Assembly: GCF_016756535.1 (NCBI RefSeq)
Contig: NZ_AP023247.1
Span: 4,960,501 to 5,024,500, forward strand
DNA from: Mesorhizobium sp. 131-2-1
GTDB lineage: Bacteria; Pseudomonadota; Alphaproteobacteria; Rhizobiales; Rhizobiaceae
DNA: 64,000 nt
Direction: 5' to 3'
Each line of letters opens with the position of its first letter. Within the stretch, counting starts at the first letter, position 1. The position numbers and the translations under genes were made by a program. Under the pieces are notes generated by a model that was given only the letters and a program-made list of their open reading frames with translations, made no database searches and was not told where the DNA came from. Below, one piece after another: positions 44,672 to 62,061 of the stretch.

Positions 44672-46147
44672 TCACCGGTGCTCGGCCAGTATCCTCGCCA
44701 GCACCGTGACGCCCCGCCGCAGCGCTTCCGCGTCAAGCCCGGCATAACCCATGATGAAGCCAGCCGCTTCCGGCCGAGGCCCGGTCGGGTCGTAGAGCGG
44801 CGATACCGGGTAGAGACCGATCCCGGCAGCTCGCGCGGCCGCGATGATCGCCGGTTCGCGCCCGGCGGCGAAGCCATGCATCCAAGCCACGACATGCAGT
44901 CCCGTATCGGCTCCCGCAATGGTGACCCTCGAGCCCAGATGGTCGGTCAAGGCCTGTAGCAGCACCTGCCTGCGTTCGGCATTCTTTCTGCGGATGCTGC
45001 GAACGTGCCGCTCGTAGGCGCCGCTCGCCAGCAACTCGCCCAGCACGTCCTGCTCCAACATCGGCGCATGCCGGTCGGTCAGGCGCTTCGCCTCGCTGAA
45101 CGCCCGGCACAGGCCGGTTGGGACGACAAGATAGCCAAGCCTCAAGGTGGGCGAGAGCGTCTTGGAGAACGTCCCGACATAGATGACTGACTCCGCGTCG
45201 AGGGTCTGCAGGGGCGGGATGGGGACGATGTCGTGGCGGTACTCGCCGTCATAGTCATCTTCGACGATGTAGGCGCCTGTCGCCGTGGCCCATGCAAGGA
45301 GGGAACGCCGCCGCGTCGCCGAAAGCACGCTGCCGAGCGGGAACTGGTGCGACGGCGTCACGCAGGCCAGGCGGGCTGGCGGGAGCGCATCCGTCCTCAG
45401 CCCGTCCGCGTCGACGGCAACGGGCACAGCGACGCCGCCTGCCGCGGCGAAGACATTGCGAGCCAGCGGATATCCCGGGTTTTCGATCACGAAGGGGTCG
45501 CCGGGGTCGAGCAGAAGCCGGGCGCAGAGGTCGAGCCCCTGCTGGGAGCCGTTGACGATGACGATCTGGTCCGGCGCGCAGCTGATGCCGCGAGCGCGCC
45601 AGAGATAGCCCTGAAGCGCACCGCGGAGAGCGGAAGACCCTTGCGGATCGCCGTAGCGCAGCCGCGGTCCGCGTCGCAGGATGGCATTGTTGGACGCTCG
45701 TCGCCAGGCCAGCACCGGGAAGTCCGCCCCGGACAGATCGCCATAGCGGAAATCCGCGACCTTGCCCGGCTGCTGTTCCGGTGGCGGAGGCAGAACCAGC
45801 AGCCGGCGCGCGAATGCCGAGAGGTTCCGAGGCGAGGCGGTCGAGACGGTCGCCTCCCCTGTCGCCCTCTCCAGCCCTGCAGCAACGACGGCGCGCGCCC
45901 CATGACGGGTGATCAGATAGCCTTCAGCGTGAAGCTGGTTGTAGGCCGCCGTCACCGTGGTTCGCGAGGCGCCCCATTCGGCGGCGAAACCCCGGGTCGA
46001 CGGCAGGCGGTCGCCGGGCCGGTAGGCGCCGCTGTGTATCTGTTCCTTTATCGCCGCGATGATCCGGCGTGCGACACCATCCTGCTCCAACTGGACCACC
46101 GAAAACCTGCAAAACTGGATATTCCAAGCAAGCCAGACATCAGGCAT
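44672..46147 (-). CDS. MocR/PdxR-family PLP-dependent regulator
   Basis: A 491-residue chimera. The GntR-type helix-turn-helix (about 25-90: QIHSGAYRPGDRLPSTRGFAAEWGASRTTVTAAYNQL, quoted in two parts by eye) precedes a class I aminotransferase domain with VEDDYDGEYRHD and the PLP Lys of VGTFSKTLSPTLRLGY. The usual ligand is PLP or an amino-compound adduct. The start is uncertain: ATG 46147 or the GTG 20 codons later. Divergent from a PaiB-like gene, 28 nt away, and probably its regulator. Confidence 0.85.
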   Translation of the reverse strand: MPDVWLAWNIQFCRFSVVQLEQDGVARRIIAAIKEQIHSGAYRPGDRLPSTRGFAAEWGASRTTVTAAYNQLHAEGYLITRHGARAVVAAGLERATGEATVSTASPRNLSAFARRLLVLPPPPEQQPGKVADFRYGDLSGADFPVLAWRRASNNAILRRGPRLRYGDPQGSSALRGALQGYLWRARGISCAPDQIVIVNGSQQGLDLCARLLLDPGDPFVIENPGYPLARNVFAAAGGVAVPVAVDADGLRTDALPPARLACVTPSHQFPLGSVLSATRRRSLLAWATATGAYIVEDDYDGEYRHDIVPIPPLQTLDAESVIYVGTFSKTLSPTLRLGYLVVPTGLCRAFSEAKRLTDRHAPMLEQDVLGELLASGAYERHVRSIRRKNAERRQVLLQALTDHLGSRVTIAGADTGLHVVAWMHGFAAGREPAIIAAARAAGIGLYPVSPLYDPTGPRPEAAGFIMGYAGLDAEALRRGVTVLARILAEHR

Positions 46148-46175
46148 CTTCAGTCGCGACGCAAGGAGTTTCGCC

Positions 46176-46799
46176 ATGTACATACCGCCCGCCTTCCGGG
46201 ATGACGACAAGGAGAGCCTGAGAGCAACGATCCGCGCGGCGCGGCTGGCGACCCTGGTCACCGCCACGGCGGAAGGCCTGCTGGCGACGCCATTGCCGCT
46301 TTTGCTCGACGAGAGCGAGGGCGAGCACGGGACGATCTACGGCCATGTGGCGAAGGCAAATCCGCAGTGGCGCGCACCCGTGCTGGGCGATTGCATGGCC
46401 ATCTTCATGGGGCCGGACGCCTACGTGACGCCGGCGTGGTATCAAACCAAGCAGGAAACCGGCAAGGTCGTGCCGACCTGGAACTATGTCGCCATCCACG
46501 CCTATGGGCCGGTCCAATTCTTCGAAGACGCCGACAGGCTGCTCGAGGTGGTGACGCGTCTCACCAATCTGCATGAAGGCGGGCGCGCCTCACCCTGGTC
46601 CGTGTCGGATGCGCCGCCAGATTTCATTCAATCGCAACTCAAGGGGATTGTCGGCCTACGCATGCCGGTCGCGAGGCTGGAAGGCAAGCGCAAGATGAGC
46701 CAGAACCGCAACGCGACCGATCGCGCCGGTGTCGCGTCCGGCCTTGCGGCGAGCGACCGGCCCTCGGACCGCGAGGTCGCGCCTCTCATCCTGGTGTGA
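46176..46799 (+). CDS. PaiB-like FMN-binding protein
   Basis: A 207-residue protein of the PaiB family (split-barrel FMN-binding fold). It begins MYIPPAFRDDDKESL and has ATPLPLLLDE, GHVAKANPQW, VPTWNYVAIHAYGP and IVGLRMPVARLEGK. PaiB is a transcriptional repressor in Bacillus; many homologues in Proteobacteria stand next to a MocR gene, as here, and are enzyme-like. AAGGAG lies about 7 nt before the ATG. The C-terminal 35 residues are Ser/Ala/Arg-rich. Confidence 0.88.
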   Translation: MYIPPAFRDDDKESLRATIRAARLATLVTATAEGLLATPLPLLLDESEGEHGTIYGHVAKANPQWRAPVLGDCMAIFMGPDAYVTPAWYQTKQETGKVVPTWNYVAIHAYGPVQFFEDADRLLEVVTRLTNLHEGGRASPWSVSDAPPDFIQSQLKGIVGLRMPVARLEGKRKMSQNRNATDRAGVASGLAASDRPSDREVAPLILV

Positions 46800-46945: not shown

Positions 46946-48694
46946 TCAACTTGCTCGTAAGGGGCGCACATACTGCTCCGGCAGCCCCGCCTTCCGCAGG
47001 GCATCAATCAAGTGTTGCTGAGCTTCAGGGCGTGCGTAGTGCAGTACCTGGATCACATTCCGAAGCGACAAATCCGGTTTCACCAGCTTCACCTTGGCGA
47101 TCACCTCACTTGCACCAGTTAAGTCGCCTAATTGCGCGCGCGCGGCGGCTAGGTACAAGGAGCCACTGGAGCGTGGTACAGGGACACTCTCGAGCGCTTC
47201 GACTGCGTCAGCATATCGAGCGAGGTCAAAGAGCGTCAGGCCGCGAACCGCTGCAAACCAATCGGGCACGAAGGGACCCAAGCCTATGGCGGCATCGATT
47301 GTGGCCAACGCATCGGCCGGCCTGCCACTGGCGCGCTGCCAGTTCGCGTAGTCGCCCTTAATCTGTATATCGGCCGGATTGAGTGTCAGCGCCCTGTCAA
47401 AATGGAAGCGTGAACGGTCATGGTCGCCTGTCCAAAGGTAGTAGAGCGCCCTTGCCCAATGAGACGTGGCGTCGTTGGCATCTAGTTCCAGCGCTTGTTT
47501 CGAAGCGCTCTCAGCCTTGGCCATCTGATCGTCATCGAGCAGAATGACATTGCTCATGGTAAGAGCTATCGCCAGCCAGGCATGAGCAAGTGCAAAATGC
47601 GGATCGACGGCAATTGCGCGCTCAAGTAGGGGTACGGCTTCGGCATCACGCTGATGGTCACATAGGTCGCGGCCTTGTAACAGACAGTCATAAGCCGACC
47701 AGCTAGTAGTTGGTTTTGCACGGGCTTTTGCTGCTTCTGCAGCGTACATACGGCCCTCCAGACTTGTTACGATTGCGGCCACAACAAGGTCCTGGATAGC
47801 GAAGATATCCTGCGCATCGCGATCGTACCGGTCGGCCCAGACGTGATTGCCGGTTCTGGCGTCGACCAATTGGGCTGTGATGCGTATTCGGTCGCCCAAT
47901 CTGCGTAGACTACCCTCAACTACATAGGCAACGCCCAGTTCCCGCGCTACTTCGATATGACTTTTTCCTCTGTTGGCAAAGTGAAACGACGCGTGGCGAG
48001 ATACTACGGATAGGCCGCGAAAGCGGGCGAGTTCGGTAATGATATCCTCGGTGATCCCATCGGAAATGTACTGTTGCCCGGGATCACCACTCATGTCGGT
48101 AAATGGCAGTACTGCTATGGACGGTTTGATTCGTTCTACCGCTGTCGGTCGCACCGATGTTCCTGAGGGAGCTCCCAGACGATAGACCCGGACCGGCTGG
48201 GCGATATTCTTGAGTTGCTGCTCACCCATGTCTTCAAACGAGAGATCAAGGCGACTTCCTACGTTGTCATGAACCATGCCGGTGACTGCAATGCCGCCCG
48301 CCGGGGCAAGTCCCTCGATCCGCGCAGCGACGTTCACGCCTTCACCGAAAACATCGCCATCCTCAGCAATCACATCCCCCAAGTTGACGCCAATGCGGAG
48401 TTGGATGGCGCGGTCCTCTGGCAGCTCTGCGTTCCGAGCTGCCATATCCTTCTGTAATGCAACTGCGCAGGCCACGGCCTTCACGACGCTGGGGAATTCC
48501 GCGAGAAAGCCATCCCCCATAGACTTAAACAGCCGACCTTGGTGCTCGGCGATCCTAGTTTCGATCACTTCGGCGCGGAGGTTCCGCACGACCGTCAGAG
48601 TGCCGTCCTCGTCCACGCCCATCAGCCGACTGTAACCGACTACATCGGCTGCAAGGATGGCAGCCAGACGGCGCTGAACAGAGTTCTCCACCAC
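46946..48694 (-). CDS. Class III adenylate cyclase with TPR-like C-terminus
   Basis: A 582-residue soluble protein. The N-terminal cyclase domain (about 8-175) has the metal-binding Asp residues of AILAADVVGYSRLMG and GRLFKSMGDGFLAEF plus GVNVAARIEGLAPAGGI. The middle part (about 195-310, KPSIAVLPFTDMSGDPGQQY) is the TolB-like/CadC-like domain usual in this rhizobial group. TPR-like helices fill the rest. It starts at a GTG. It makes cAMP; the input is unknown. Base use is visibly less GC-rich than its neighbours, and an IS fragment lies 270 nt upstream, suggesting transfer. Confidence 0.9.
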   Translation of the reverse strand: MVENSVQRRLAAILAADVVGYSRLMGVDEDGTLTVVRNLRAEVIETRIAEHQGRLFKSMGDGFLAEFPSVVKAVACAVALQKDMAARNAELPEDRAIQLRIGVNLGDVIAEDGDVFGEGVNVAARIEGLAPAGGIAVTGMVHDNVGSRLDLSFEDMGEQQLKNIAQPVRVYRLGAPSGTSVRPTAVERIKPSIAVLPFTDMSGDPGQQYISDGITEDIITELARFRGLSVVSRHASFHFANRGKSHIEVARELGVAYVVEGSLRRLGDRIRITAQLVDARTGNHVWADRYDRDAQDIFAIQDLVVAAIVTSLEGRMYAAEAAKARAKPTTSWSAYDCLLQGRDLCDHQRDAEAVPLLERAIAVDPHFALAHAWLAIALTMSNVILLDDDQMAKAESASKQALELDANDATSHWARALYYLWTGDHDRSRFHFDRALTLNPADIQIKGDYANWQRASGRPADALATIDAAIGLGPFVPDWFAAVRGLTLFDLARYADAVEALESVPVPRSSGSLYLAAARAQLGDLTGASEVIAKVKLVKPDLSLRNVIQVLHYARPEAQQHLIDALRKAGLPEQYVRPLRAS

Positions 48695-48963: not shown

Positions 48964-49050
48964 ATGCGCTACGAACTCAGCGATTGCGAATGGACCGCCA
49001 TCAGACCGTTGCTGCCGAATAAGCCGCGCGGCGTTCGGCGCGTAAACGTT
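48964..49050 (+). mobile_element. IS5-family transposase N-terminal fragment
   Basis: An ATG opens MRYELSDCEWTAIRPLLPNK followed by PRGVRRVN, the start of IS5-family (IS427-like) transposases, which begin with an MRYELSD.EW..I.P.LPNKPRGV.RV pattern. Homology stops at about 49050, just before the PanB-like gene's stop. No catalytic DDE residues and no inverted repeats remain. The 269 nt before it (48695-48963) holds no gene I can support. Confidence 0.75.
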
Positions 49051-49053
49051 CCT

Positions 49054-49866
49054 TCAGAGCCCCACAGACGCCTTGAAAGCTGCAAGCTCTTGGTCGGCGA
49101 TCGAGACCACATGCTGCGGCTCCGGGTAGGCTCCGGTCTGCACATCCGAGATGAACTCGCGGTAGGCGGCAATGCGCTCGCGCTGCAGCCGCTCGTATTC
49201 GGCGGCGAAGTTGCGATATGTCTTTGCATGGCGGGGCTTGTGACCGGTCGTGTGGCCGAGCACGTCCTCGCTGAAAAGATACTGCGCATCGGCGTGCGGC
49301 CCGGCACCCATGCCAAGCATGATCATCGATGTGTTCCTGGTGATCAGCTCGCCGATCCGGTCGGGCACCACCTCCAGCTCCGCGCCAAAGCAGCCGATTG
49401 CTTCCAGGCGCTTCACATGGTCCCACACGACCCGCGCGCCCTCGGCGGTCCTGCCGACGGCCTTGAAGCCACCGGTCCAGGTGCATTGCGAGGGGATCAG
49501 GCCGACATGGGCGATGATCGGCACCGCATTGTCGCAGAGCGCTTTCTGGATATCGAGCGAGGCGGCGCAGTAGAAGCAGTCGCCGCCAATGCGCATGAAG
49601 TGATAGGCGGCCTTGAGATAATCTTCGGCCGTGATCAGGTCGCCGAAGGGGCCATAGGGCAGCCCGACCTGCACGAAGCAGCGACCGGCCGCGTCGCGCA
49701 TTTCAGGCGAGAAGAAGCGGCCCTCGATCGACAGCATGTCGACGCCAGCCGCGTCCGCCGCCGCGGCCTCTTCGAGCGAGGTGACGTAGAGCATGGAGAT
49801 CTTCTGCCCGCGACCCTTCATGGCGCGGATGTCGGCGACCGTCGGCCGGTTGGTTTTGGTGACCAT
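49054..49866 (-). CDS. PanB-fold (ketopantoate hydroxymethyltransferase-like) enzyme with altered metal site
   Basis: A 270-residue PEP/KPHMT-type TIM barrel. VTSLEEAAAADAAGVDMLS, IIAHVGLIPSQ and MIMLGMGAGPHADAQYLFSEDVLG align by eye with PanB. The PanB Mg ligands are replaced: the VGDS Asp by Glu48 (LSIEGR), the DMPF Asp by Gly68 (QVGLPYG), and the KLEGG Glu by the FYCAAS segment. A pantothenate role is therefore unlikely; an aldolase-like or one-carbon step in polyol breakdown is inferred. AGGGAAG precedes the ATG. Last gene of the seven-gene operon, 10 nt after the isomerase-like gene. Confidence 0.82.
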   Translation of the reverse strand: MVTKTNRPTVADIRAMKGRGQKISMLYVTSLEEAAAADAAGVDMLSIEGRFFSPEMRDAAGRCFVQVGLPYGPFGDLITAEDYLKAAYHFMRIGGDCFYCAASLDIQKALCDNAVPIIAHVGLIPSQCTWTGGFKAVGRTAEGARVVWDHVKRLEAIGCFGAELEVVPDRIGELITRNTSMIMLGMGAGPHADAQYLFSEDVLGHTTGHKPRHAKTYRNFAAEYERLQRERIAAYREFISDVQTGAYPEPQHVVSIADQELAAFKASVGL

Positions 49867-49876
49867 TTTTCTTCCC

Positions 49877-50659
49877 TCAGACGGTGAAAGCGTCGCGGAA
49901 GGCGTGGAGCGCCGCCTCGGGATCGCCGGAGGCAAACGCCTCCATGCCGACCGGTCCGCGGTAGCCCATGTCCTTCAGCGCGCGGGCGATGCCGCGATAG
50001 TTGATCTCTCCGGTGCCGGGCTCCATCCGACCCGGCACGTCGGCCACCTGGACCTCGCCGATCCATGGCAGGCAGGCGCGGCAGAGCTCGATCAGATTCC
50101 CCTCGCCGATCTGCGCGTGGTAGAGATCGAGGTTGAGGCGCAGGCCGGGCCGGTTCACGCTCTTGACCAGCGCCAGCGTGTCCTCGGCGCGCGCGAACGG
50201 CACGCCGGGATGATCGACCGGCAGGTTGAGATTCTCCAGCGTGAAGGTCACGCCCTCCGCCTCGGCGAGGTCGGCGATGCGGTTCAGCGTGTCGCGCGCC
50301 TTGAGCCACATCGCGCCGCTGACTGTCTCGCAAGGCGTGACCGGCAGGCCGCCCTCGCCCAGCCCCGTGCCATGCAGGTTGAGCCGCGCGACGCCGAGGC
50401 GCTTGCCGACCGCTGCCGTCTCCTTGGCCGTCTTCAAGAGTTCGGCTGCCCCCTCGTCGTCGGCAAGCCGGCCGCGCAGATAGCCGTTCATGATCGAGAA
50501 TGTCGCGCCGGAACTTTCCAGCATCGAGAGGTCATGGTCGGGCCAGTTCCAGAGCCCGACCTGGAAACCCAATTCAGTGAGGCGCCGTATGCGGAACTCC
50601 ATCGGCCGGTCGCGCCAGAGCATCTCGGCGCAGGCCGCAAGGGTGAAGGTGTCGGACAT
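49877..50659 (-). CDS. Hydroxypyruvate isomerase/AP-endonuclease-2-type TIM barrel
   Basis: A 260-residue sugar-phosphate-isomerase-like TIM barrel. The metal and base residues of Hyi-type isomerases are recognisable in VTFTLENLNLP, LNLDLYHAQIGEGNLIE, IGEVQVADVPGRMEPGTGEINY and VGMEAFA. Hyi interconverts hydroxypyruvate and tartronate semialdehyde; relatives (MocC, IolE/IolI types) act on inososes and keto-polyols. Substrate unknown. It is separated from the Rieske gene by one base, in the operon with a sugar ABC transporter. Confidence 0.85.
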   Translation of the reverse strand: MSDTFTLAACAEMLWRDRPMEFRIRRLTELGFQVGLWNWPDHDLSMLESSGATFSIMNGYLRGRLADDEGAAELLKTAKETAAVGKRLGVARLNLHGTGLGEGGLPVTPCETVSGAMWLKARDTLNRIADLAEAEGVTFTLENLNLPVDHPGVPFARAEDTLALVKSVNRPGLRLNLDLYHAQIGEGNLIELCRACLPWIGEVQVADVPGRMEPGTGEINYRGIARALKDMGYRGPVGMEAFASGDPEAALHAFRDAFTV

Positions 50660-50660
50660 G

Positions 50661-50972
50661 TCAGACCTCTATGTGCACGCGGCCGTTCTCGACCTTGGTC
50701 TTATAGGTTTTGAGGTTCACGCAAACCGGCGCGCGCAGCGCTTCGCCGGTGCGATAGTCGAACACCCCATTATGCTTCGGGCATTCGATCTTGTATTCCA
50801 TGACCAGGCCGTCGCTCAGATGCACTTTTTCGTGCGTGCACAGGCCATCGGTGCAGAAGTAGTCGTCGTCGGGACCGCGGTAGATGGCGAATGTCCGGCC
50901 GCCATGGTCGAAGCGGATCAGATCCTCTTCGTCGATATCGTCCGTGCCACACGCCTCAATCCACATTGCCAT
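50661..50972 (-). CDS. Rieske [2Fe-2S] ferredoxin, MocE-like
   Basis: A 103-residue soluble Rieske protein. The cluster ligands are Cys45-Thr-His47 (LCTHEKVH) and Cys64-Pro-Lys-His67 (ECPKHNGVFD). It is the size of oxygenase-type ferredoxins and resembles MocE of rhizopine catabolism. It should feed electrons to an oxygenase, and the best partner is the histidine-box hydroxylase at the head of this operon. No ferredoxin reductase is encoded in the window. The start may be at 50972 or two codons later. Confidence 0.88.
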   Translation of the reverse strand: MAMWIEACGTDDIDEEDLIRFDHGGRTFAIYRGPDDDYFCTDGLCTHEKVHLSDGLVMEYKIECPKHNGVFDYRTGEALRAPVCVNLKTYKTKVENGRVHIEV

Positions 50973-51083
50973 TTAGCTGCCTGCCGTCTGTCTTCGGTTT
51001 CGTCAGAGAGGCGGCCGACGGACCACGCGATCCGCCGGCCGCAAGCGAAGATGCCCGTGGAGGATATGGGCGTCTTCGACGGT

Positions 51084-51887
51084 CTATGCCTGCTCGCCAT
51101 GTGCCGTTGCGAAGCCCTCGATCTCGGCTTCCAGTTCCGCCATCTGCTCGCCGCCGGCCATCAGGTCGGTGACGGCTTCGCGGCTTTTCTCGCCCTTGCG
51201 GAAATCGGCAGCCTTGGCGCCACGGATGAGGACGGCGAAGTGATCGCCGACCGTCAGCGCGTGGACGACATTGTGGGTGATGAAGATGACGGCGATACCC
51301 TTGCGGCGCGCCTGCAGCACGATGCGCAGCACGTGCGCGGCTTCCTTGACGCCAAGGGCTGCGGTCGGCTCGTCGAGGATCAGCACGCTGGCGCCGAAAT
51401 GGACGGCCCGCGCGATCGCAAGCGCCTGGCGCTCGCCGCCCGACAGGCCACCGACGAGGCGGTCGCCATCGTCGATGCGGGTGATGCCGAGCTGGCGCAT
51501 CTCGGTGACGGCGATCTCGTTGGCCCGCTTGCGGTCGTAAACAGTAAGCGGTCCCCAACGCCGTGTCGGTTCCGCTCCGACAAAGAAGGAGCGGCCGATG
51601 CTCATCAGCGGAAACGTGCCGCCGAACTGGTGGACGGTCGCGATGCCATGGTCGCTGGCATCTCGCGGGCTGTCGAACGCCACCGGTTTGCCATCCATCT
51701 CCATCGTGCCCGAGGTGGGCTTGTGGACGCCGGAGAGGATCTTGATCAGCGTCGACTTGCCGGCGCCATTGTCGCCGAGCAGGCACAGCACCTCGCCCTT
51801 GTGAACATCGAGCGAGATGTCGTGCAGGACGTCGATCGGGCCGAACGACTTGTTGATCTCGGTCAGCCTGAGCAGGGGTGTCGTCAT
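51084..51887 (-). CDS. Sugar ABC transporter ATP-binding protein (single domain)
   Basis: A 267-residue ATPase of the CUT2 sugar-transport group, with only one nucleotide-binding domain as in FrcA (RbsA-type proteins have two). Walker A is GDNGAGKST, the signature is LSGGERQ and Walker B is VLILDEPTAAL. VHQFGGTFPLM replaces the more usual YQE of the Q-loop region but keeps Gln. The ATG overlaps the permease stop by one base (TGATG). Energises uptake with the permease and binding protein upstream. Confidence 0.93.
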   Translation of the reverse strand: MTTPLLRLTEINKSFGPIDVLHDISLDVHKGEVLCLLGDNGAGKSTLIKILSGVHKPTSGTMEMDGKPVAFDSPRDASDHGIATVHQFGGTFPLMSIGRSFFVGAEPTRRWGPLTVYDRKRANEIAVTEMRQLGITRIDDGDRLVGGLSGGERQALAIARAVHFGASVLILDEPTAALGVKEAAHVLRIVLQARRKGIAVIFITHNVVHALTVGDHFAVLIRGAKAADFRKGEKSREAVTDLMAGGEQMAELEAEIEGFATAHGEQA

Positions 51888-52948
51888 CAGCGTGTCCTCG
51901 CCTTGTTGCGAGGCGCGTAGGTCAGCGCCATGGTGCGGAAGGTGTTGTTCATGAGCACGGCAGCGAGCAGCAGGACGCCGATGATCAGGCTTGCCCAGTT
52001 GGCGTCGAAGCCGGTGTAGAAGATGCCCTGGTTGACGATGGCGAAGGTGAGCGTGCCAAGCACGATGCCGACGACCGAACCATAGCCGCCGGTGAGCAGC
52101 ACGCCGCCGATGACCACCGCGATGATCGAGTTGAAGATGAAGGACTGCCCGGCCGCCACCTGCGCGCTGTTGTAGAGGATCGCCTGCGACATGCCGACGA
52201 ACGCGGCGCACAGGCCGCTGCTCATGAACAGTGCGATGGTCAGCCGGTCGGTCGGGATGCCGGCGTTGCGGGCGCTGACGGCGTCGCCGCCCATGGCCAG
52301 GATCCAGTTGCCGAAGCGCGAGAAATTCAGGATGAAGCCAACGATAAGGATGACGGCCAGCCACCAGAACAGCGTCACCTGGAATTTGCCGCCGAGATAG
52401 TCGCCAAGCAGCAGCTTGGCGGTAGGCCCGCTCTTCAGCGCGACACTGGTGCTGCCCGACAGGATCACCGACAGGCCGAGTGTCAGGCCGGCCAGCGCGA
52501 ACAGAGTCGCCAGCGTTACGACGAAGGACGGCACCTTTGTCCGGATCACCAGGACGCCGTTAATGAAGCCGACGGCAAGGCCAAGGCCGAGCGACGCCAG
52601 GATGCCGACGATGATCGGCAGATCGTAGTGGCCCGACAGGATGGCAATCGTCATCGAACTGGCAGGAACCATCGATCCGACCGAAAGGTCGAGATGCCCG
52701 GCAATCATCAGCAGCCCCACCGGGAGCGCGATGATGCCGAGTTCCGAGGCGACGTTGAGCCAGCTCGCTGCGCCGCCCGCCGACAGGAAGTTGGCGCCGC
52801 CGAAGATCGAGAAGAAGCCGAGCACGGCGATCATGCCGATCAGCGAGCCGACTTCGGGGCGTCGCACAAGGCTGCCGATAGAAGGCATCGAGGAATGCGG
52901 TGGCGCAGTCGCTGGCGAGGCAGCTTGGTCAAGGGCTTGGGATTTCAT
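51887..52948 (-). CDS. Sugar ABC transporter permease (CUT2/RbsC type)
   Basis: A 353-residue inner-membrane permease with about ten hydrophobic segments. It has the family stretches AGHLDLSVGSMVPASS and the cytoplasmic-loop GGDAVSARNAGIPTDRLTI. A 25-residue polar N-terminus precedes the first helix. It acts as a homodimer with the ATPase and receives substrate from the binding protein. Separated from the binding-protein gene by 190 nt that hold a repeat element. Confidence 0.93.
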   Translation of the reverse strand: MKSQALDQAASPATAPPHSSMPSIGSLVRRPEVGSLIGMIAVLGFFSIFGGANFLSAGGAASWLNVASELGIIALPVGLLMIAGHLDLSVGSMVPASSMTIAILSGHYDLPIIVGILASLGLGLAVGFINGVLVIRTKVPSFVVTLATLFALAGLTLGLSVILSGSTSVALKSGPTAKLLLGDYLGGKFQVTLFWWLAVILIVGFILNFSRFGNWILAMGGDAVSARNAGIPTDRLTIALFMSSGLCAAFVGMSQAILYNSAQVAAGQSFIFNSIIAVVIGGVLLTGGYGSVVGIVLGTLTFAIVNQGIFYTGFDANWASLIIGVLLLAAVLMNNTFRTMALTYAPRNKARTR

Positions 52949-52982
52949 CGAAGTGTCCCTGGCGTTGTGACGTGAGCACGAC

Positions 52983-53127
52983 TCCCTTCTCTCCTTGCGG
53001 GAGAAGGTGTCGCCGAAGGCGACGGATGAGGGGTGCTCCAGCTTGGCGGCGACGGCGATCCGTCACGCACCCCTCAACCGTCTCGGCGCTGAGCGCCGAT
53101 CCACCTTCTCCCATAAGGGAAGAAGGC
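52983..53127. repeat. Rhizobial intergenic palindromic mosaic repeat
   Basis: About 145 nt with hairpins at both ends (CCTTCTCTCCTTGCGGGAGAAGG near 52985 and CCTTCTCCCATAAGGGAAGAAGG near 53104) and inner hairpins (GTCGCC-GAA-GGCGAC, GGCGCTGAGCGCC). Such GGAGAAGG...GATGAGGGG elements are dispersed in Mesorhizobium and relatives (RIME-like). It sits inside the operon between the binding protein and permease genes, where it may lower downstream expression or protect the upstream message. Confidence 0.75.
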
Positions 53128-53138
53128 AGAGCTGAGCG

Positions 53139-54125
53139 TTACCGGGCGCCGGCGGTGGCACCCGCCAACGTCGCATCGACATTGGCGGCGTCCACGATGC
53201 CCGGTCCGGTCAGCACCGGCTTCGTTGGCAGGTCGAGCCCATAGTTGACGAAGCCGTTGAGCAGCGACACCGCCAAATAACCTTGGAGGTAAGGCTGCTG
53301 GTCGATGGAGAACATCTGCTTGCCGTCCTTGATACGCTGCAGGCCGGTTTCGTCCATGTCGAAGGAAGCGAGCTTGACCTTGTCGCCGACATTGGCCTGG
53401 CCGATCGCGTTGGCGGCGCTGTTGGCATCGCCGGCGCTGATGGTGATGACGCCGTCGATGCTGGCGTCCTTCAACACAGCGGCCTTGATCGCCTCGGCGA
53501 CCGCGGTCGGGTTGCCGAAGCTCGACGAGGGCAGCGGCAGCTGGCTCGACTTGCCGCCGCTCTTGGCGATGGCGTCGGCAATGCCCTTGCAGCGATCCTC
53601 GGTGTTGGTGGCGCCCGGAAGCGTGTTGACGCAAAGCACGTTCTTGGCGCCATGGCTGCCATAGTACGCGCCGCCACCGAGACCGGCCGTGTACTCCTCG
53701 TTGCCGACATAGTTCATGGCGCCGAGCCGCTTGGCCGCGTCCATGCCGCCGGAATTGTAGATGATGAGCGGCACGCCCGCGGCAACGACCTCCTTGAAGG
53801 CGTCGTCCATCGCCTCCGGCACCCAGTCCGGGCCGACGATGGCGCTCGGGTTCTGGCTGAGCGCGGTGCGGATGAGCTTGGCGGCGTCAGGCCCGAGATT
53901 GTCGTAATTCTGCGGTCCGAGCCAGGTGACCGAGCCGCCTGTCAATTCGGCGACCTTGCCGGCGTCGTCGGCGCCCTTCTTGACCTTCGACCAGAACGGA
54001 TCGTCGGCCTTGCCGCCGATGACGAATATCTTTGCGCCCTTGGATTCGGCCATTGCCGATGTCGCCGACGCGCCGGCCACGCCGGCGAGCAGGATAGCCG
54101 CCAAAAGTCTGGTGATACGCTTCAT
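53139..54125 (-). CDS. Sugar ABC transporter periplasmic binding protein (RbsB/MocB type)
   Basis: A 328-residue type I periplasmic binding protein. A signal peptide (about 1-26, ATSAMAES) is followed by the two-lobed domain: KIFVIGGKADDPFWSKVKKG, VGPDWVPEAMDDAFKEVVAAGV, then SIDGVITISAGDANS and KLASFDMDETGLQRIKDG. These are typical of sugar, inositol and rhizopine binders. GGGAGGAAAG lies 6-8 nt before the ATG at 54125. The ligand is unknown. Confidence 0.92.
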   Translation of the reverse strand: MKRITRLLAAILLAGVAGASATSAMAESKGAKIFVIGGKADDPFWSKVKKGADDAGKVAELTGGSVTWLGPQNYDNLGPDAAKLIRTALSQNPSAIVGPDWVPEAMDDAFKEVVAAGVPLIIYNSGGMDAAKRLGAMNYVGNEEYTAGLGGGAYYGSHGAKNVLCVNTLPGATNTEDRCKGIADAIAKSGGKSSQLPLPSSSFGNPTAVAEAIKAAVLKDASIDGVITISAGDANSAANAIGQANVGDKVKLASFDMDETGLQRIKDGKQMFSIDQQPYLQGYLAVSLLNGFVNYGLDLPTKPVLTGPGIVDAANVDATLAGATAGAR

Positions 54126-54231
54126 GTCTTTCCTCCCAGTTGCCGTCTTCAGACGGGTTTTTGAAAATTGCTGCCTCTCCTCCACGCGCGTCCCCTCCGG
54201 CCGCGTGTGACGTGTTCAAGGGTTCCTGGGC

Positions 54232-55239
54232 TCACGCCCTGGCGTTCACGCGCTCCCGCTTTTTCTGGAACCGGGCGTCCATCAGGGCATCGCCCTGCTT
54301 GGTGCCGTCGTGCCAGGTGCCGAACCACCTATCGAGCGGGATCAGCCCGTCGCCGCCGTAGTTCACCTCGAAGTATTTGTGGTGCAGGTAATGCGCATAG
54401 GCGTGGCTCGAAACGGCCGTGTCCTCGGTCAGCTCCAGTTTCTCGAAGCCGAGATGGCCGTTGACGGCGCCAAAGCCCGCGACATGCAGCTGGAACAGCG
54501 CGACGATCGGGTTGGACGGGATCACGAGGTGCCAGAAGACAACCGCATGATAGAGGAACCCTTCCACCGGATGCATCGACAGCGACGACCATGGCGACGG
54601 GTTGATCGAGTTGTGGTGGACCGAATGGATCCAGCGATAGAGCGGTCCCCAATGGATCAGGCGGTGGATGAAGAAGAAGTGCACCTCGTGGATCGCCGGC
54701 GCGATCAAAACCAGTGCCGCGAGATAGACAGGATGGTCTGCCCAGCCGAGCCACGGCACATATCCCTTTGCGAAGCACCACAGGAAGACGACCTCGACCA
54801 CGGTCCAAAGCGGGATGGTGATGAAGAACGAGCGCAGGAAATTGTCGAGGTTCTGGCTCTGGAACCAGAAGACGTCGGACGGCGTATCGCTCGGGAATTT
54901 GTGATTGTACTTGAACCGGGTCGCCTGAGCGCGCTGGATGAAATAGCGCAGCTCGAAGATGCCGTAGAAGACGAAGATCGCGGCGGCGTTGACGGCATAG
55001 AGCCACAGCACCCAGCCCCAGCTGATCGTCTTCATCGTCTCGACGCCAGGGACAATGTAGAACCAGTAAAGCAGCGCGGTCGCCATGTGGAAGGCATTCC
55101 ACGGCCAGATATAGCCGGGCAGCCAAGCCAGGATTTTCGGCAGCCTCAGTGGCCAGGTCCAGAACGGCACGACCTCGAGGGCGGCGTTCGGCTTCCAGTC
55201 GCCGCGTTTGTCGCGCTTGCCGTATTCGAGATCGTCCAT
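54232..55239 (-). CDS. Membrane histidine-box hydroxylase (sterol desaturase/fatty acid hydroxylase superfamily)
   Basis: A 335-residue polytopic di-iron enzyme. Three histidine boxes are visible: HFFFIHRLIH (187-196), HSVHH (205-209) and HYLHH (283-287), with helices between. Superfamily members hydroxylate or desaturate with O2 and electrons from a ferredoxin or cytochrome b5. Here a Rieske ferredoxin gene lies in the same operon. GGAGG precedes the ATG. First gene of the seven-gene operon, divergent from LacI. The physiological substrate may be a polyol ether rather than a lipid (inference); MocD of rhizopine catabolism plays the comparable oxygenase role. Confidence 0.88.
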   Translation of the reverse strand: MDDLEYGKRDKRGDWKPNAALEVVPFWTWPLRLPKILAWLPGYIWPWNAFHMATALLYWFYIVPGVETMKTISWGWVLWLYAVNAAAIFVFYGIFELRYFIQRAQATRFKYNHKFPSDTPSDVFWFQSQNLDNFLRSFFITIPLWTVVEVVFLWCFAKGYVPWLGWADHPVYLAALVLIAPAIHEVHFFFIHRLIHWGPLYRWIHSVHHNSINPSPWSSLSMHPVEGFLYHAVVFWHLVIPSNPIVALFQLHVAGFGAVNGHLGFEKLELTEDTAVSSHAYAHYLHHKYFEVNYGGDGLIPLDRWFGTWHDGTKQGDALMDARFQKKRERVNARA

Positions 55240-55503
55240 GCCGGGCCTCCACTCAGCGATGCCGCAAGGATGGCCCGCACGCGACGGCGCTTCCGCCTCG
55301 GGTCAGGCGGCCGCAATGCGCTCGTGCTGTTGCTATCCCGCGGCCGGCGACGTTCTTGCCGCGCTCGCTTGTCCAGTGATAAACATCTTGATCCAAAATG
55401 AATCAAGAATAGAATGTTTATTCCAAAATGATTGTGTCATTCGTGTCAAAATCGCCCGCTGGATGATATTTTCGTATCATCGATAGGGCGCGAGTGAGAT
55501 GAA
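55240..55503. promoter_or_regulatory. Divergent promoter region with LacI-operator-like repeats
   Basis: Between the hydroxylase and lacI-type genes. GATGATA-N6-TATCATC (55462-55481) is a perfect 7-bp-arm palindrome 22 nt before the regulator's ATG. TTGAT-N9-ATCAA (55388-55406) is a second one. CCAAAATGA occurs at 55393 and again 30 bp on at 55423. These are AT-rich in a GC-rich setting and are good operator candidates; binding is inferred. Confidence 0.55.
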
Positions 55504-56541
55504 ATGGATCAGCGCAAGCGACCGACCATCAAGGATGTTGCCGCCGAGGCGAAAGTCTCGGTCGCCACCGTCAACCGAGTGCTCGGCGGTTCGGACGCCG
55601 TGCGCCAGGGGACGCGAGAGCGCGTCATGCTGGCGGCGGAGCAGATCGGTTTTTATGGCACCGGCGCGCTGAGGAGCCGTGTCGCGGCAGCGCGGCCGCG
55701 TTACAAGTTCGGCTTCCTGCTGCACCAGCCCGGCCGCGTCTTCTATCGCAACACCGCCGAAGCGCTGCGCGCGGCGGCCCAGGGCGTTGTCGACGCCGAA
55801 ATAGACGTGCGAACGGAGTTCCTGGACGATCTATCGCCGCAGAACATTGCATCGCGGATGCTGGCACTGGGCGCCGAATGCGACGCGATCGGGGTGGTGG
55901 CGGCGGTGCACCCGCTCGTCATCCAGGCGGTCGACGCGCTACATGCCCGCAATGTGCCGGTCTTCGCGCTGATTTCGCAGATATCGGCGACCGGCCAGGT
56001 CCACTATGTCGGCCTGGACAATTGGAAAGTTGGGCGCACCGCCGCCTGGGTGTTCGAACATGTTTGCCAGGCGCCGGGCAAACTCGGAATCCTCGTCGGC
56101 AATCACCGCTATCGTTGCCAGGAAATGAACGAAAGCGGCTTCCGCTCCTATTTCCGCGAGCACGCGCCGGGCTTCACTCTGCTCGAGCCGCTGCCGACTT
56201 TCGAGTCGAGCGCCATCGCGCAGGAGATGACGGAGAAGCTGCTCACCGACAACCCGGATCTGTCGGGCCTCTATGTCGCCGGTGGCGGCATCACAGGCGC
56301 CATTGCAGCGCTGCGCGCCAGCGGACGGGCCGGCAGCCTCGTCGTCGTCGGTTATGAGATGATGGATGTGACCCGCGAAGCACTGCTCGATGGCACACTG
56401 ACCTTCGTCATCGCGCATCCGCTTTCCCGCCTGGCCAATGAGGTGATGGCCGGCATGGTCCGCGCCGTCTCCGCACCGAATGAAGGCGGCAACGTCACGA
56501 CCATCCTGCCCTTCGACATCTACACGCGCGAGAACATCTAG
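55504..56541 (+). CDS. LacI-family transcriptional regulator
   Basis: A 345-residue regulator. The N-terminal LacI helix-turn-helix (about 7-30, TIKDVAAEAKVSVATVNRVL) and hinge precede a periplasmic-binding-protein-like sensor domain (KFGFLLHQPGRVFYRNTAEA, GVVAAVHPLVIQAVDALH, YVGLDNWKVGRTAAWVF). This sub-branch carries an RbsB-like effector domain, and the effector is probably the transported sugar. Divergent from the seven-gene operon and its likely repressor. Confidence 0.92.
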   Translation: MDQRKRPTIKDVAAEAKVSVATVNRVLGGSDAVRQGTRERVMLAAEQIGFYGTGALRSRVAAARPRYKFGFLLHQPGRVFYRNTAEALRAAAQGVVDAEIDVRTEFLDDLSPQNIASRMLALGAECDAIGVVAAVHPLVIQAVDALHARNVPVFALISQISATGQVHYVGLDNWKVGRTAAWVFEHVCQAPGKLGILVGNHRYRCQEMNESGFRSYFREHAPGFTLLEPLPTFESSAIAQEMTEKLLTDNPDLSGLYVAGGGITGAIAALRASGRAGSLVVVGYEMMDVTREALLDGTLTFVIAHPLSRLANEVMAGMVRAVSAPNEGGNVTTILPFDIYTRENI

Positions 56542-58498: not shown

Positions 58499-59941
58499 AT
58501 GGGCGCCGGCGCCTTGACCAGGGAAGTCGACCTTCAGAACGCTGACCGCCAGCGCTGGCTGACGCTTGCCGAAAAGGCGCTGGCCGGAGGCTCCTTCGAG
58601 GAGCGGCTCGTTTCCCACAGCGACGACGGCATCCGCATCGAGCCGCTCTATGAGCGTTCGGTCACCGCCGAACCGCTGGTCAGGGCAAATCCCGGAGCGT
58701 CATGGATCGTCAGCCAGCGTGTCGACGATCCGGATGTCGCCCGCGCCAAGGCGCAGGCGCTGGAGGATGTCGCGCAGGGCGCCACCGGCCTGTCGCTGGT
58801 CTTCGAGGGCGCGCCGAACGCTTTCGGCTACGGCCTGCCACGGACGGCCGAGGCGCTGGAGACGGTGCTCGACGGCGTGCCGCTCAATCGCGTCCAGGTC
58901 CGCATAGACGCCCATCCCTGGAGCCGCGCGGTGGCCGACTGGCTGGTGGCGTTCCTCGGCAAGCGCCGCTCCGATCCGACCAAGCTCAACCTCTCGTTCG
59001 GCATCGATCCGGCGGCGATCTTCGCCGGCACCGGCCGGCTGCGCATGTCGATCGAAGCGCTGCAGGAATCGATGCCGCAATCGATGGCGCATTTCTTCTC
59101 AATGGGCGTGCCGGGCGTGCTGCTCGAGGCCGACGGGCGCGTCTTCCACAATGCCGGCGCCACCGAGGCGCAGGAGCTCGGCACGATGCTCGCCTCCGCG
59201 GTCTCCTATCTCAGGATGTTCGAGAAGGCGCGGCAGCCGCTGGTCTATGCCGCGCCCCATATCGGCTTCGCGCTCAGCGTCGACCAGGACCAGTTGCTGT
59301 CGATGGCCAAGGTGCGGGCGCTGCGCCGGCTGTGGGCCCGCATCCAGGAAGTCTGCTCGATCCCGGCCTCGACCGCCAGCATCCATGCCGAGACATCCTA
59401 TCGCATGATGACGACGGCGGACCCGGAAACCAACATATTGCGCACGGCGATCGCCTGTTTCGCGGCCGCCGCCGGCGGGGCCGATTCGATCTCCATCCTG
59501 CCGCACACCATCGCGCACGGGCTGCCGGCCGGCTTTGCCCGCCGCGTCGCCCGCAACGCCCAGCTGATCATGGCGCATGAAAGCCATGTCGATCATGTCG
59601 CCGATCCCGCCAGCGGCTCGGGCGCGGTCGAGGCGCTGACCAATGATCTCTGCGCGACAGCGTGGGAGGAACTCCAGCGCATCGAGGCCGAGGGCGGCGT
59701 GCTGGCGAGCCTGCAGCAAGGATATATCCAGAACCGCGTGCAGACGGCCGCGGCGAAGCGCAATGCCGAGTACCGGACAGGCTCGCGCGCGATCATCGGC
59801 ACCACGCTGTTCCGCGCCGGCAGCGAGCGCCAGGTCGAGACCCTGCCGGCGGAGCGGCGGCCGGCGCTGACGGAGGGCGTCGCTGTGTGTGAGCCGCTGT
59901 TTCCGGTGCGCATCGACCAGTCGATCGGAGCCGGCGCATGA
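58499..59941 (+). CDS. mutA: Methylmalonyl-CoA mutase small subunit
   Basis: A 480-residue subunit of the (R)-methylmalonyl-CoA to succinyl-CoA mutase heterodimer. The TIM barrel resembles the large subunit ([51 protein letters not shown]), but no B12-binding domain follows, so it is structural or regulatory, as in other two-subunit mutases. GGGAGGAG lies 5 nt before the ATG. It overlaps the large-subunit gene by 4 nt (ATGA), so the two are coupled. The pathway is propionate and odd-chain or branched-chain breakdown. Confidence 0.92.
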
Positions 59942-62061
59942 TCCCCGATTTCAGCCAGATCGGCTGGTCCGCGCCTCGGCGTGCGCCGGTCGAGCTCAAG
60001 GGCCAGCGGATGACGCCGGAAGGCATCGCCGTCAAACATCTCTATACGCAGGGCGATCTCAAAGGGCTGGCGAACCTCGATACCTATCCGGGCCTGCCGC
60101 CTTTCGTGCGCGGCCCCTACCCGACAATGTATGTCCAGCAGCCATGGACGATCCGGCAATATGCGGGGTTTTCGACGGCGGAGGAATCCAACGCCTTCTA
60201 CCGGCGCAACCTCGCCGCCGGGCAGAAGGGCCTGTCGGTCGCCTTCGACCTTGCCACCCATCGCGGCTATGACAGCGACCATCCGCGCGTCGCCGGCGAT
60301 GTCGGCATGGCGGGCGTGGCGATCGACTCCATCCTCGACATGCGCCAGCTGTTTGACGGCATCCCGCTCGGCGAAATGACGGTGTCGATGACGATGAACG
60401 GCGCGGTGCTGCCGGTCATGGCGCTCTACATCGTCGCGGCCGAAGAACAGGGCGTTGCCGAGAAGGATCTCGCTGGAACCATCCAGAACGACATCCTGAA
60501 GGAGTTCATGGTCCGCAACACCTACATCTATCCGCCGAAACCCTCGATGCGGATCGTGTCGGACATTTTCGCCTACACCTCGCGGCACATGCCGAAGTTC
60601 AATTCGATCTCGATCTCCGGCTACCACATGCAGGAGGCGGGCGCGACGGCCGACCTGGAGCTCGCCTACACCATCGCCGACGGCATCGAGTATGCCCGCG
60701 CCGGTGTCGCCGCCGGGCTCGATATCGACCGCTTCGCGCCGCGGCTGTCCTTCTTCTGGGCGGTCGGCATGGACTTCTTCATGGAGGTCGCCAAGCTGCG
60801 GGCCGCACGCCTGCTGTGGTCGAGCCTGATGGCGAAGAACTTTTCGCCGAAGGACGAGCGCTCGCTGTCGCTGCGCACCCATTGCCAGACGTCCGGATGG
60901 TCGCTGACAGCGCAGGATCCGTACAACAACATCACCCGCACGATGATCGAGGCGATGGCGGCGACGCAAGGCCACACGCAGTCGCTGCACACCAATTCCT
61001 TCGACGAGGCGATGGCGCTGCCGACCGACCATTCGGCCCGCGTCGCCCGCAACACGCAGCTTATCCTGCAGAAGGAATCCGGCACCACGCGCATCGTCGA
61101 TCCCTGGGGCGGCTCGGCCTTCGTCGAGCGCCTGACGCATGATCTCGCGGCGCGCGCGCTCGCCCATATCGAGGAGGTCGAGAGCCTTGGCGGCATGGCC
61201 GCGGCGATCGAGCAAGGCATTCCCAAGCTGCGCATCGAGGAAGCGGCCGCCCGCACCCAGGCGCGCATCGATTCCGGCGAGCAGGTGCTGGTCGGCGTCA
61301 ACGCGCACCGGCCTCAGACCGACATCGCGGTCGACGTGCTCAAGATCGACAATGCCGAGGTCAAGGCCCGGCAACTGGCGAAGCTGCAGCGGCTGAAAGG
61401 CACGCGCGACGTCGGCGCGGTCGAAAGCGCGCTTGCCGCGCTGACCCGCGCGGCCGAGAGCGACGGGAACCTGCTTGAATTCGCCATCCGCGCGGCGCGC
61501 GCCAACGCGACCGTCGGCGAGATTTCGCTGGCGCTGGAAAAGGTCTTCGGGCGCCATGTCGCCTCGGTGCAGACGATCTCCGGCGTCTACCGCGATGCGC
61601 TCGGCGACAATCCGGCGCTCGAAAAGCTGCAGGACAAGATCGAGGCGTTCGAGAAGACGTCCGGCGGCAAGCCGCGCATCCTGGTCGCCAAGATGGGACA
61701 GGACGGCCACGACCGCGGCCAGAAGGTGATCGCCACCGCCTTTGCCGATCTCGGCTTCGACGTCACCGTCGGTCCGATGTTCCAGACGCCGGAGGAGATC
61801 GCGAAACTGGCGGTCCAGCATGACGTCCACATCATCGGCGCCTCCTCGCTGGCGGCGGGACACCTGACGCTCATTCCGGAGCTCAGGGAGGCGCTGAAGA
61901 AGCTCGGCCATGGCGACATGCTGATCGTCGCCGGCGGTGTCATTCCGCCTCAGGATTATGACGCCGTGCTCAAAGCTGGAGCGGCGGAAATCTTCCCGCC
62001 GGGCACTGTCATTCCGGAGGCGGCGGACAGGCTTATGGACCGACTGCTGGCTGCAGCATAA
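59938..62061 (+). CDS. mutB: Methylmalonyl-CoA mutase large subunit
   Basis: A 707-residue catalytic subunit. The barrel carries the substrate-site segments [40 protein letters not shown] and [20 protein letters not shown]. The C-terminal cobalamin domain has the DxHxxG signature in [10 protein letters not shown] (about 587-596), with the axial His near 591, then [11 protein letters not shown]. AdoCbl-dependent rearrangement of methylmalonyl-CoA. Translationally coupled to the small subunit. No MeaB-type GTPase or epimerase is seen nearby. Confidence 0.96.

Follow-up and report, generated by a model that had tools for sequence, protein, structure and literature searches.

The window analysed here is a stretch of 64,000 nucleotides from Mesorhizobium sp. 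131-2-1 (contig NZ_AP023247.1, positions 4,960,501 to 5,024,500), and our subject is a group of eight genes at positions 49054 to 56541 of it, namely seven minus-strand genes and a divergent LacI-family regulator. On balance, the operon probably serves to take up an O-methylated cyclitol, with methyl-inositols such as pinitol and ononitol as the likeliest candidates, to demethylate it oxidatively and to deliver the released one-carbon (C1) unit to folate. We regard it as a moc-like, oxygenase-dependent form of cyclitol catabolism in a variant under LacI control. Its unexpected part is the folate branch together with a family of PanB-like proteins.

All eight open reading frames (ORFs) were confirmed in position and strand, and each product matches its Pfam family above the cut-off, which agrees with the gene arrangement described in an earlier sequence-only reading of this DNA. 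In the order of transcription, the minus-strand genes encode a membrane di-iron hydroxylase of the FA_hydroxylase/sterol desaturase superfamily, which is the proposed O-demethylating oxygenase (54232..55239; PF04116, 68 bits); a periplasmic sugar-binding protein (53139..54125, where 54125 is a chosen ATG; PF13407); a CUT2-type sugar ABC permease (51887..52948; PF02653, 145 bits); an ABC ATPase that has only one nucleotide-binding domain (51084..51884; PF00005); a MocE-type Rieske [2Fe-2S] ferredoxin (50661..50972; PF00355); a Hyi/OtnI-like TIM-barrel protein, proposed to be an inosose isomerase or epimerase (49877..50659; PF01261); and a PanB-like protein, proposed to transfer the released C1 unit to tetrahydrofolate (THF) (49054..49866; PF02548), whose start is most likely 49866 rather than 49935. 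The regulator (55504..56541, plus strand; PF00356 and PF13407) is separated from them by a shared promoter/operator region (55240..55503). Basically, the transporter consists of a BPD_transp_2 permease, a Peripla_BP_4 binding protein and a CUT2-type ATPase of one domain only, which aligns to the first half alone of the CUT2 ATPase models of about 500 positions. The top NCBIfam models of the permease are CUT2 sugar permeases, under their cut-offs, and the Rieske protein is the sole operon protein that exceeds an NCBIfam cut-off (for the ATPase, among the best 25 of 189 matches). Nested inverted repeats, which presumably resemble the intergenic palindromes of rhizobia, separate the binding-protein and permease genes (52982-53129), and a short frame without a Pfam match, in which we see a likeness to the beginning of an IS5-type transposase, lies immediately behind the PanB-like gene (48964-49050).

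A scan of genome contigs yielded 513 encoded relatives of the hydroxylase, of which the best 80 were kept as an uneven sample; these include, among others, Mesorhizobium, Rhizobium, Shinella, Rhodobacterales and a few Betaproteobacteria, and the nearest relatives are those of Mesorhizobium (88-92% identical). Counts refer to the 65 loci with at least 1.5 kb upstream and at least 6.5 kb downstream, the other 15 of the 80 being dropped for short flanks. A partner gene was counted as present when tblastn found it anywhere in the fetched stretch at E <= 1e-15 over at least 40% of the query; a recount used gene order, distance and at least 40% identity. By the tblastn count the regulator and the binding protein are each present in 62 loci, the permease and the ATPase in 61 each, the Rieske protein in 58, and the TIM-barrel and PanB-like proteins in 57 each. 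In the recount, the full eight-gene set occurs in 48 loci, and in 47 of them the order and strands are those of the window. The linkage of the hydroxylase to the other operon genes is not due to chance. Its association with the sugar transporter, which the sequence-only reading had proposed, is borne out. That reading would have been refuted if the hydroxylase or the Rieske gene were usually unlinked; the Rieske gene is linked in 58 of 65 loci.

The set also varies. In the betaproteobacterial loci L078, L085 and L088 the genes are rearranged yet clustered, and in L009 and L010 the Hyi-like TIM-barrel gene is swapped for another dehydrogenase and another TIM-barrel protein. Two records, from Bradyrhizobium and Rhizobium, combine the hydroxylase-Rieske-reductase-isomerase set with transporters of other kinds, and no PanB-like gene is listed in the one from Rhizobium. 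On pSymA of S. meliloti 1021 there is a hydroxylase relative (57%) adjoined by a LacI-like ORF (31%), with an ATPase match (31%) 5 kb off; no Rieske, permease or binding-protein match was found in the 25 kb around it. Two further arrangements were seen: a tandem form that carries a second FA_hydroxylase along with two binding proteins (L038, L047 and L053), followed in the latter two by another dehydrogenase and TIM-barrel protein, and a Bradyrhizobium plasmid locus (L092) with the order PanB-like, FA_hydroxylase, Rieske, isomerase and FAD reductase, which has a ribokinase gene upstream of it and, close by, one for an MFS transporter.

The closest analogue of the operon is the moc system for rhizopine (3-O-methyl-scyllo-inosamine), which it resembles in its MocE ferredoxin, its TIM-barrel protein and a binding protein nearest the rhizopine-binding model, in the GFO/IDH/MocA-family dehydrogenase and MocF-type reductase of its relatives, and in the proposed role of an oxygenase complex that would supply the inositol pathway. 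The Rieske protein scores 183 bits on the MocE-family model TIGR02377 (cut-off 136), and the top NCBIfam model of the binding protein is the rhizopine-binding one, so the likeness to rhizopine catabolism noted earlier from the sequence stands. However, the oxygenase here is an FA_hydroxylase that matches PF04116 only, whereas MocD is, we assume, an oxygenase of the FA_desaturase family; a MocD-type PF00487 gene is present elsewhere in the window's genome. The regulator is of the LacI family instead of MocR (GntR-aminotransferase), the ABC transporter genes lie inside the operon, a PanB-like gene is added, and the window has no MocF-type reductase. The binding protein, whose nearest solved chain by sequence is 4ru1_A, reaches 178 bits on the rhizopine-binding model NF052284, far under the cut-off of 420, and so falls short of MocB. 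The designation "rhizopine operon" was thus rejected because the binding protein, the regulator and the oxygenase do not fit. As for the equivalent of MocC that was also noted earlier, the TIM-barrel protein is close to no MocC-like model, and its best match is hydroxypyruvate isomerase (TIGR03234, 107 bits against a cut-off of 353). The window does contain one MocR-like gene outside the operon (44675-46177), which is of the PdxR type (NF052282, 424 bits, cut-off 320) and scores 378 against 650 bits on the rhizopine MocR model; it diverges from a gene for an FMN_bind_2 protein, the pair spanning 44675-46796.

Additional partners were found in the relatives by clustering of downstream ORFs and a second scan of the loci. 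A GFO/IDH/MocA dehydrogenase is present in 45 of the 65 loci, always at most 600 bp from a core gene, and a MocF-type ferredoxin reductase with a Reductase_C domain in 17; PurU occurs in 12 and FolD in three. Reductase, PurU, FolD and PanB-like genes are found all together in L036, L054 and L078, the last being a Comamonadaceae metagenome-assembled genome with another gene order, and PurU exceeds its own cut-off in L054 and L078. In some relatives a single cluster thus combines counterparts of MocA, MocB, MocE and MocF with a TIM-barrel protein and a C1 branch of folate metabolism. The dehydrogenases of the clusters were compared with inositol models in four cases only: those of L041 (422 bits), L078 (416) and L111, a locus in the window's own genome (425), exceed the inositol 2-dehydrogenase cut-off of 355 bits, and that of L009 is nearest the chiro-inositol model, under the cut-off. 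In having a CUT2 transporter and, in relatives, an IolG-type dehydrogenase adjoining the operon genes, the system is also similar to inositol (iol) catabolism; ordinary iol operons, however, are not known to need an oxygenase, a ferredoxin or C1 genes.

These dehydrogenases, together with the iolC and IolG-type genes that lie beside MocD versions (see below) and the rhizopine-like binding protein, are the reason for proposing an inositol-like substrate, and the gene context supports both such a substrate and a folate outlet. That an O-methylated polyol is likely, as had been suggested from the sequence, is supported. A different ring, either another methylated sugar or a rhizopine-like amino-cyclitol, would be O-demethylated by the same chemistry. 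The top model of the binding protein would suit it, CUT2 transporters carry many sugars, and the TIM-barrel protein resembles isomerases for several sugars; we nevertheless consider it unlikely, as the relatives' dehydrogenases pass the inositol 2-dehydrogenase cut-off, iolC and an inositol dehydrogenase stand beside a MocD version, no MocR regulator is present and the binding protein is under the rhizopine cut-off.

The proposed pathway is as follows. The O-methylated cyclitol would enter through the CUT2 ABC transporter. Electrons would pass from NADH through a reductase encoded elsewhere in the genome and the MocE ferredoxin to the membrane di-iron hydroxylase, which would hydroxylate the O-methyl group to give an unstable hemiacetal that falls apart into inositol and carbon at the formaldehyde level. 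The electron flow and this hydroxylation are modelled by analogy on mocDEF, which carries out the demethylation step of rhizopine catabolism. The PanB-like protein would pass the freed carbon to THF, and FolD and PurU, which are outside the operon here and inside the clusters of some relatives, would convert the folate-bound C1 unit to formate. The freed inositol would be oxidised by inositol dehydrogenase, and the TIM-barrel protein would reshape the product for the ordinary inositol pathway. What the analysis shows is which genes are there, that they stay linked, to which families they belong and what partners they have in relatives; the substrate, each enzymatic step and the operator are inferred. 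In the literature mocDEF is described as functioning in rhizopine catabolism, and a 1998 title names a ferredoxin oxygenase complex (PMC10107442).

Since the window has no Reductase_C match, the reductase must be supplied from elsewhere, as was foreseen; the whole genome has five such matches, two of them weak, all outside the window. The same must hold for the dehydrogenase, PurU and FolD, where the genome was searched for the first two of these and for the reductase.

As for the hydroxylase, its histidine motifs H192-x3-H196, H205-x2-H208-H209 and H283-x2-H286-H287, the three clusters expected of an FA_hydroxylase di-iron centre, are the same throughout an alignment of 45 sequences, which comprises the window protein and 44 of 120 listed relatives. 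No NCBIfam model matches it, and a sequence search of solved structures gave no match. Within the same superfamily, alkylglycerol monooxygenase splits ethers, hydroxylating the carbon adjacent to the oxygen; it acts on lipid substrates with a pterin cofactor, whereas a ferredoxin donor and a cyclitol substrate are proposed here.

The PanB-like protein belongs to the Pfam family Pantoate_transf (PF02548, 131 bits, cut-off 28.7) and has the PanB fold, but unlike ketopantoate hydroxymethyltransferase itself it is far under both NCBIfam PanB models (118 against 272 and 88 against 207.55 bits) and shows 20-31% identity to solved PanB chains. Searches with it matched 4018 and 5370 proteins, true PanB possibly among them, and 120 were listed from each. 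We aligned the window protein and 60 of these 240 proteins with only three true PanB proteins for comparison. The family retains the fold, a Glu and a His. We take D45, D84, K112 and E114 of E. coli PanB to be its metal and keto-acid residues; the D84 site is Gly and the K112 site Tyr in all 61 PanB-like proteins, the E114 site is Ala, Ser, Val or a gap, and the D45 site is Gly in 29 (including the window protein), Asp in 25 and another residue in seven. Most of the metal and keto-acid residues of PanB have thus been lost. As a candidate for the pantothenate enzyme of the genome the PanB-like gene was rejected, since two other genes of this genome score highly as PanB (335 and 362 bits).

The company that this family keeps was examined in several samples. 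The window's genome has three further PanB-like genes: one beside MocD-MocE-reductase and an operon with inositol-dehydrogenase and CUT2 genes (L111), one that neighbours MocE and a second FA_hydroxylase (L112), and one on a 286-kb contig that neighbours a reductase and a third FA_hydroxylase (L113, C2:99000-118000), where downstream ORFs resemble conjugation genes and are putatively such. In an order-level sample of 121 genomes (PanB-like at least 120 bits, MocE over its cut-off, MocD at least 150 bits, within 6 kb), 14 of 20 PanB-like matches are near a MocE gene, for which the rough chance expectation is about 0.5% each, and 10 are near MocD. Conversely, 14 of 27 MocE genes have a PanB-like gene nearby and five have neither partner. 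Five of the 20 PanB-like matches are without both MocE and MocD, and one of these (C2:107940) adjoins an FA_hydroxylase and a reductase. Among 14 neighbourhoods picked from 28 matches, 12 have PanB-like next to MocD, to MocE or to genes of the hydroxylase cluster; the two others, L147 and L156, have it without them. In a phylum sample the family occurs in 19 of 398 genomes (E <= 1e-35), the window's own included, all of the same class as the window. A plasmid search returned 382 records, 102 of them from Enterococcus with an ordinary-looking panB; Rhizobium and Sinorhizobium records show, as annotated, the row MocD-MocE-reductase-PanB-like. On M. huakuii pMHb the row continues with PurU and FolD, both over cut-off, and in A. 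zhoushanense MocD-MocE-PanB-like is followed, as annotated, by a LacI gene, an epimerase, an ABC transporter, an inositol 2-dehydrogenase and 5-dehydro-2-deoxygluconokinase (iolC).

Because the PanB-like protein accompanies MocD and folate C1 genes and has lost PanB residues, it would act on the C1 unit rather than on the ring. This goes against the cleavage of the carbon skeleton by a PanB-fold enzyme that the sequence-only reading had envisaged, an element of its pathway that finds no support; its rhizopine likeness, its missing reductase, its oxygenase-transporter unit and its O-methylated polyol as the likely substrate are supported. A proposal near that cleavage idea is that the substrate is a C-branched polyol, whose C-methyl group the hydroxylase turns into hydroxymethyl, and that the PanB-like protein runs the PanB reaction in reverse as a retro-aldol to give methylene-THF. 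PanB homology and fold are in its favour and it likewise predicts PurU and FolD, whose linkage is equally compatible with it; we consider it quite improbable, given that the equivalents of D84, K112 and E114, whose roles we presume as above, are replaced in 61 of 61 proteins, that the same family serves rhizopine-type MocD systems and that inositol is not expected to give a 2-oxo-acid. Still less credible is hydroxylation only, with no C1 unit released, PanB-like as an unrelated sugar-chain aldolase and PurU and FolD as accidental neighbours. The minority occurrence of PurU and FolD would agree with this, but they turn up repeatedly, in clusters of the Rhizobium type, of the Mesorhizobium MocD type and of Betaproteobacteria, and PanB-like stays beside oxygenase genes as other neighbours vary. 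Returning to oxidative demethylation, we tentatively suggest that the PanB-like family, of at least hundreds of proteins, may be a THF-dependent, C1-capturing enzyme that receives the carbon of the demethylation, either as formaldehyde or directly from the hemiacetal, and makes 5,10-methylene-THF, and that, with MocE/MocF and either di-iron oxygenase family, it may form a portable methyl-inositol demethylation module in alphaproteobacteria.

Several observations weigh against demethylation with a folate outlet. The operon itself contains neither a dehydrogenase nor a reductase gene, and neither PurU nor FolD; among the recounted loci of its close Mesorhizobium relatives (L009-L024) the dehydrogenase occurs in L009-L011 alone, and none has the reductase, PurU or FolD. 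Overall, only a minority of loci have PurU or FolD, and PanB-like is missing in eight of 65 loci, including L085 and L088, which retain the hydroxylase, Rieske, TIM-barrel and dehydrogenase genes. The weak hydroxylase model (pLDDT 71) fits no solved structure (0 of 32 at E <= 0.001), and FA_hydroxylase enzymes act mostly on lipids. Finally, the binding protein is under the rhizopine cut-off.

As to regulation, the shared intergenic region contains an inverted repeat, TTGAT...TCAAG, at 55386-55408. In 15 aligned promoters (the window and 14 loci picked from the 80), TTG..T and TCAAG are invariant and the A and T in between are conserved to at least 90%, so the repeat is a candidate operator. 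A pattern search with it gave no matches. Elsewhere in the window there are two neighbouring methylmalonyl-CoA mutase genes, the second with the B12-binding domain (58499-62061), and a gene for an adenylate/guanylate cyclase domain with TPR repeats (46946-48694).

In openly licensed literature, to which the search was limited, we found no paper on this gene set, none describing the folate branch with the PanB-like family and no genes for methyl-inositol breakdown; the portion seen of a pine-beetle paper on pinitol gives no degradation genes. To our knowledge, an enzyme that joins formaldehyde to THF is regarded as missing or unnecessary. Members of the PanB-like family, where named, are mostly labelled as pantothenate biosynthesis.

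Methylated inositols, whose function in nodules was long unclear, are widespread among legumes. Pinitol and ononitol are widely made by these plants and both build up in Lotus nodules (PMC8730688), so that a Mesorhizobium is likely to use them as substrates; the presence of the same operon in Rhodobacterales suggests that the substrate also occurs outside nodules. A defined and widely conserved operon makes methyl-inositol breakdown testable by growth. The linked PanB-like gene hints at an enzyme that joins a toxic one-carbon product to folate, and, if this is true, the present label of the family, 3-methyl-2-oxobutanoate hydroxymethyltransferase, would have to be corrected.

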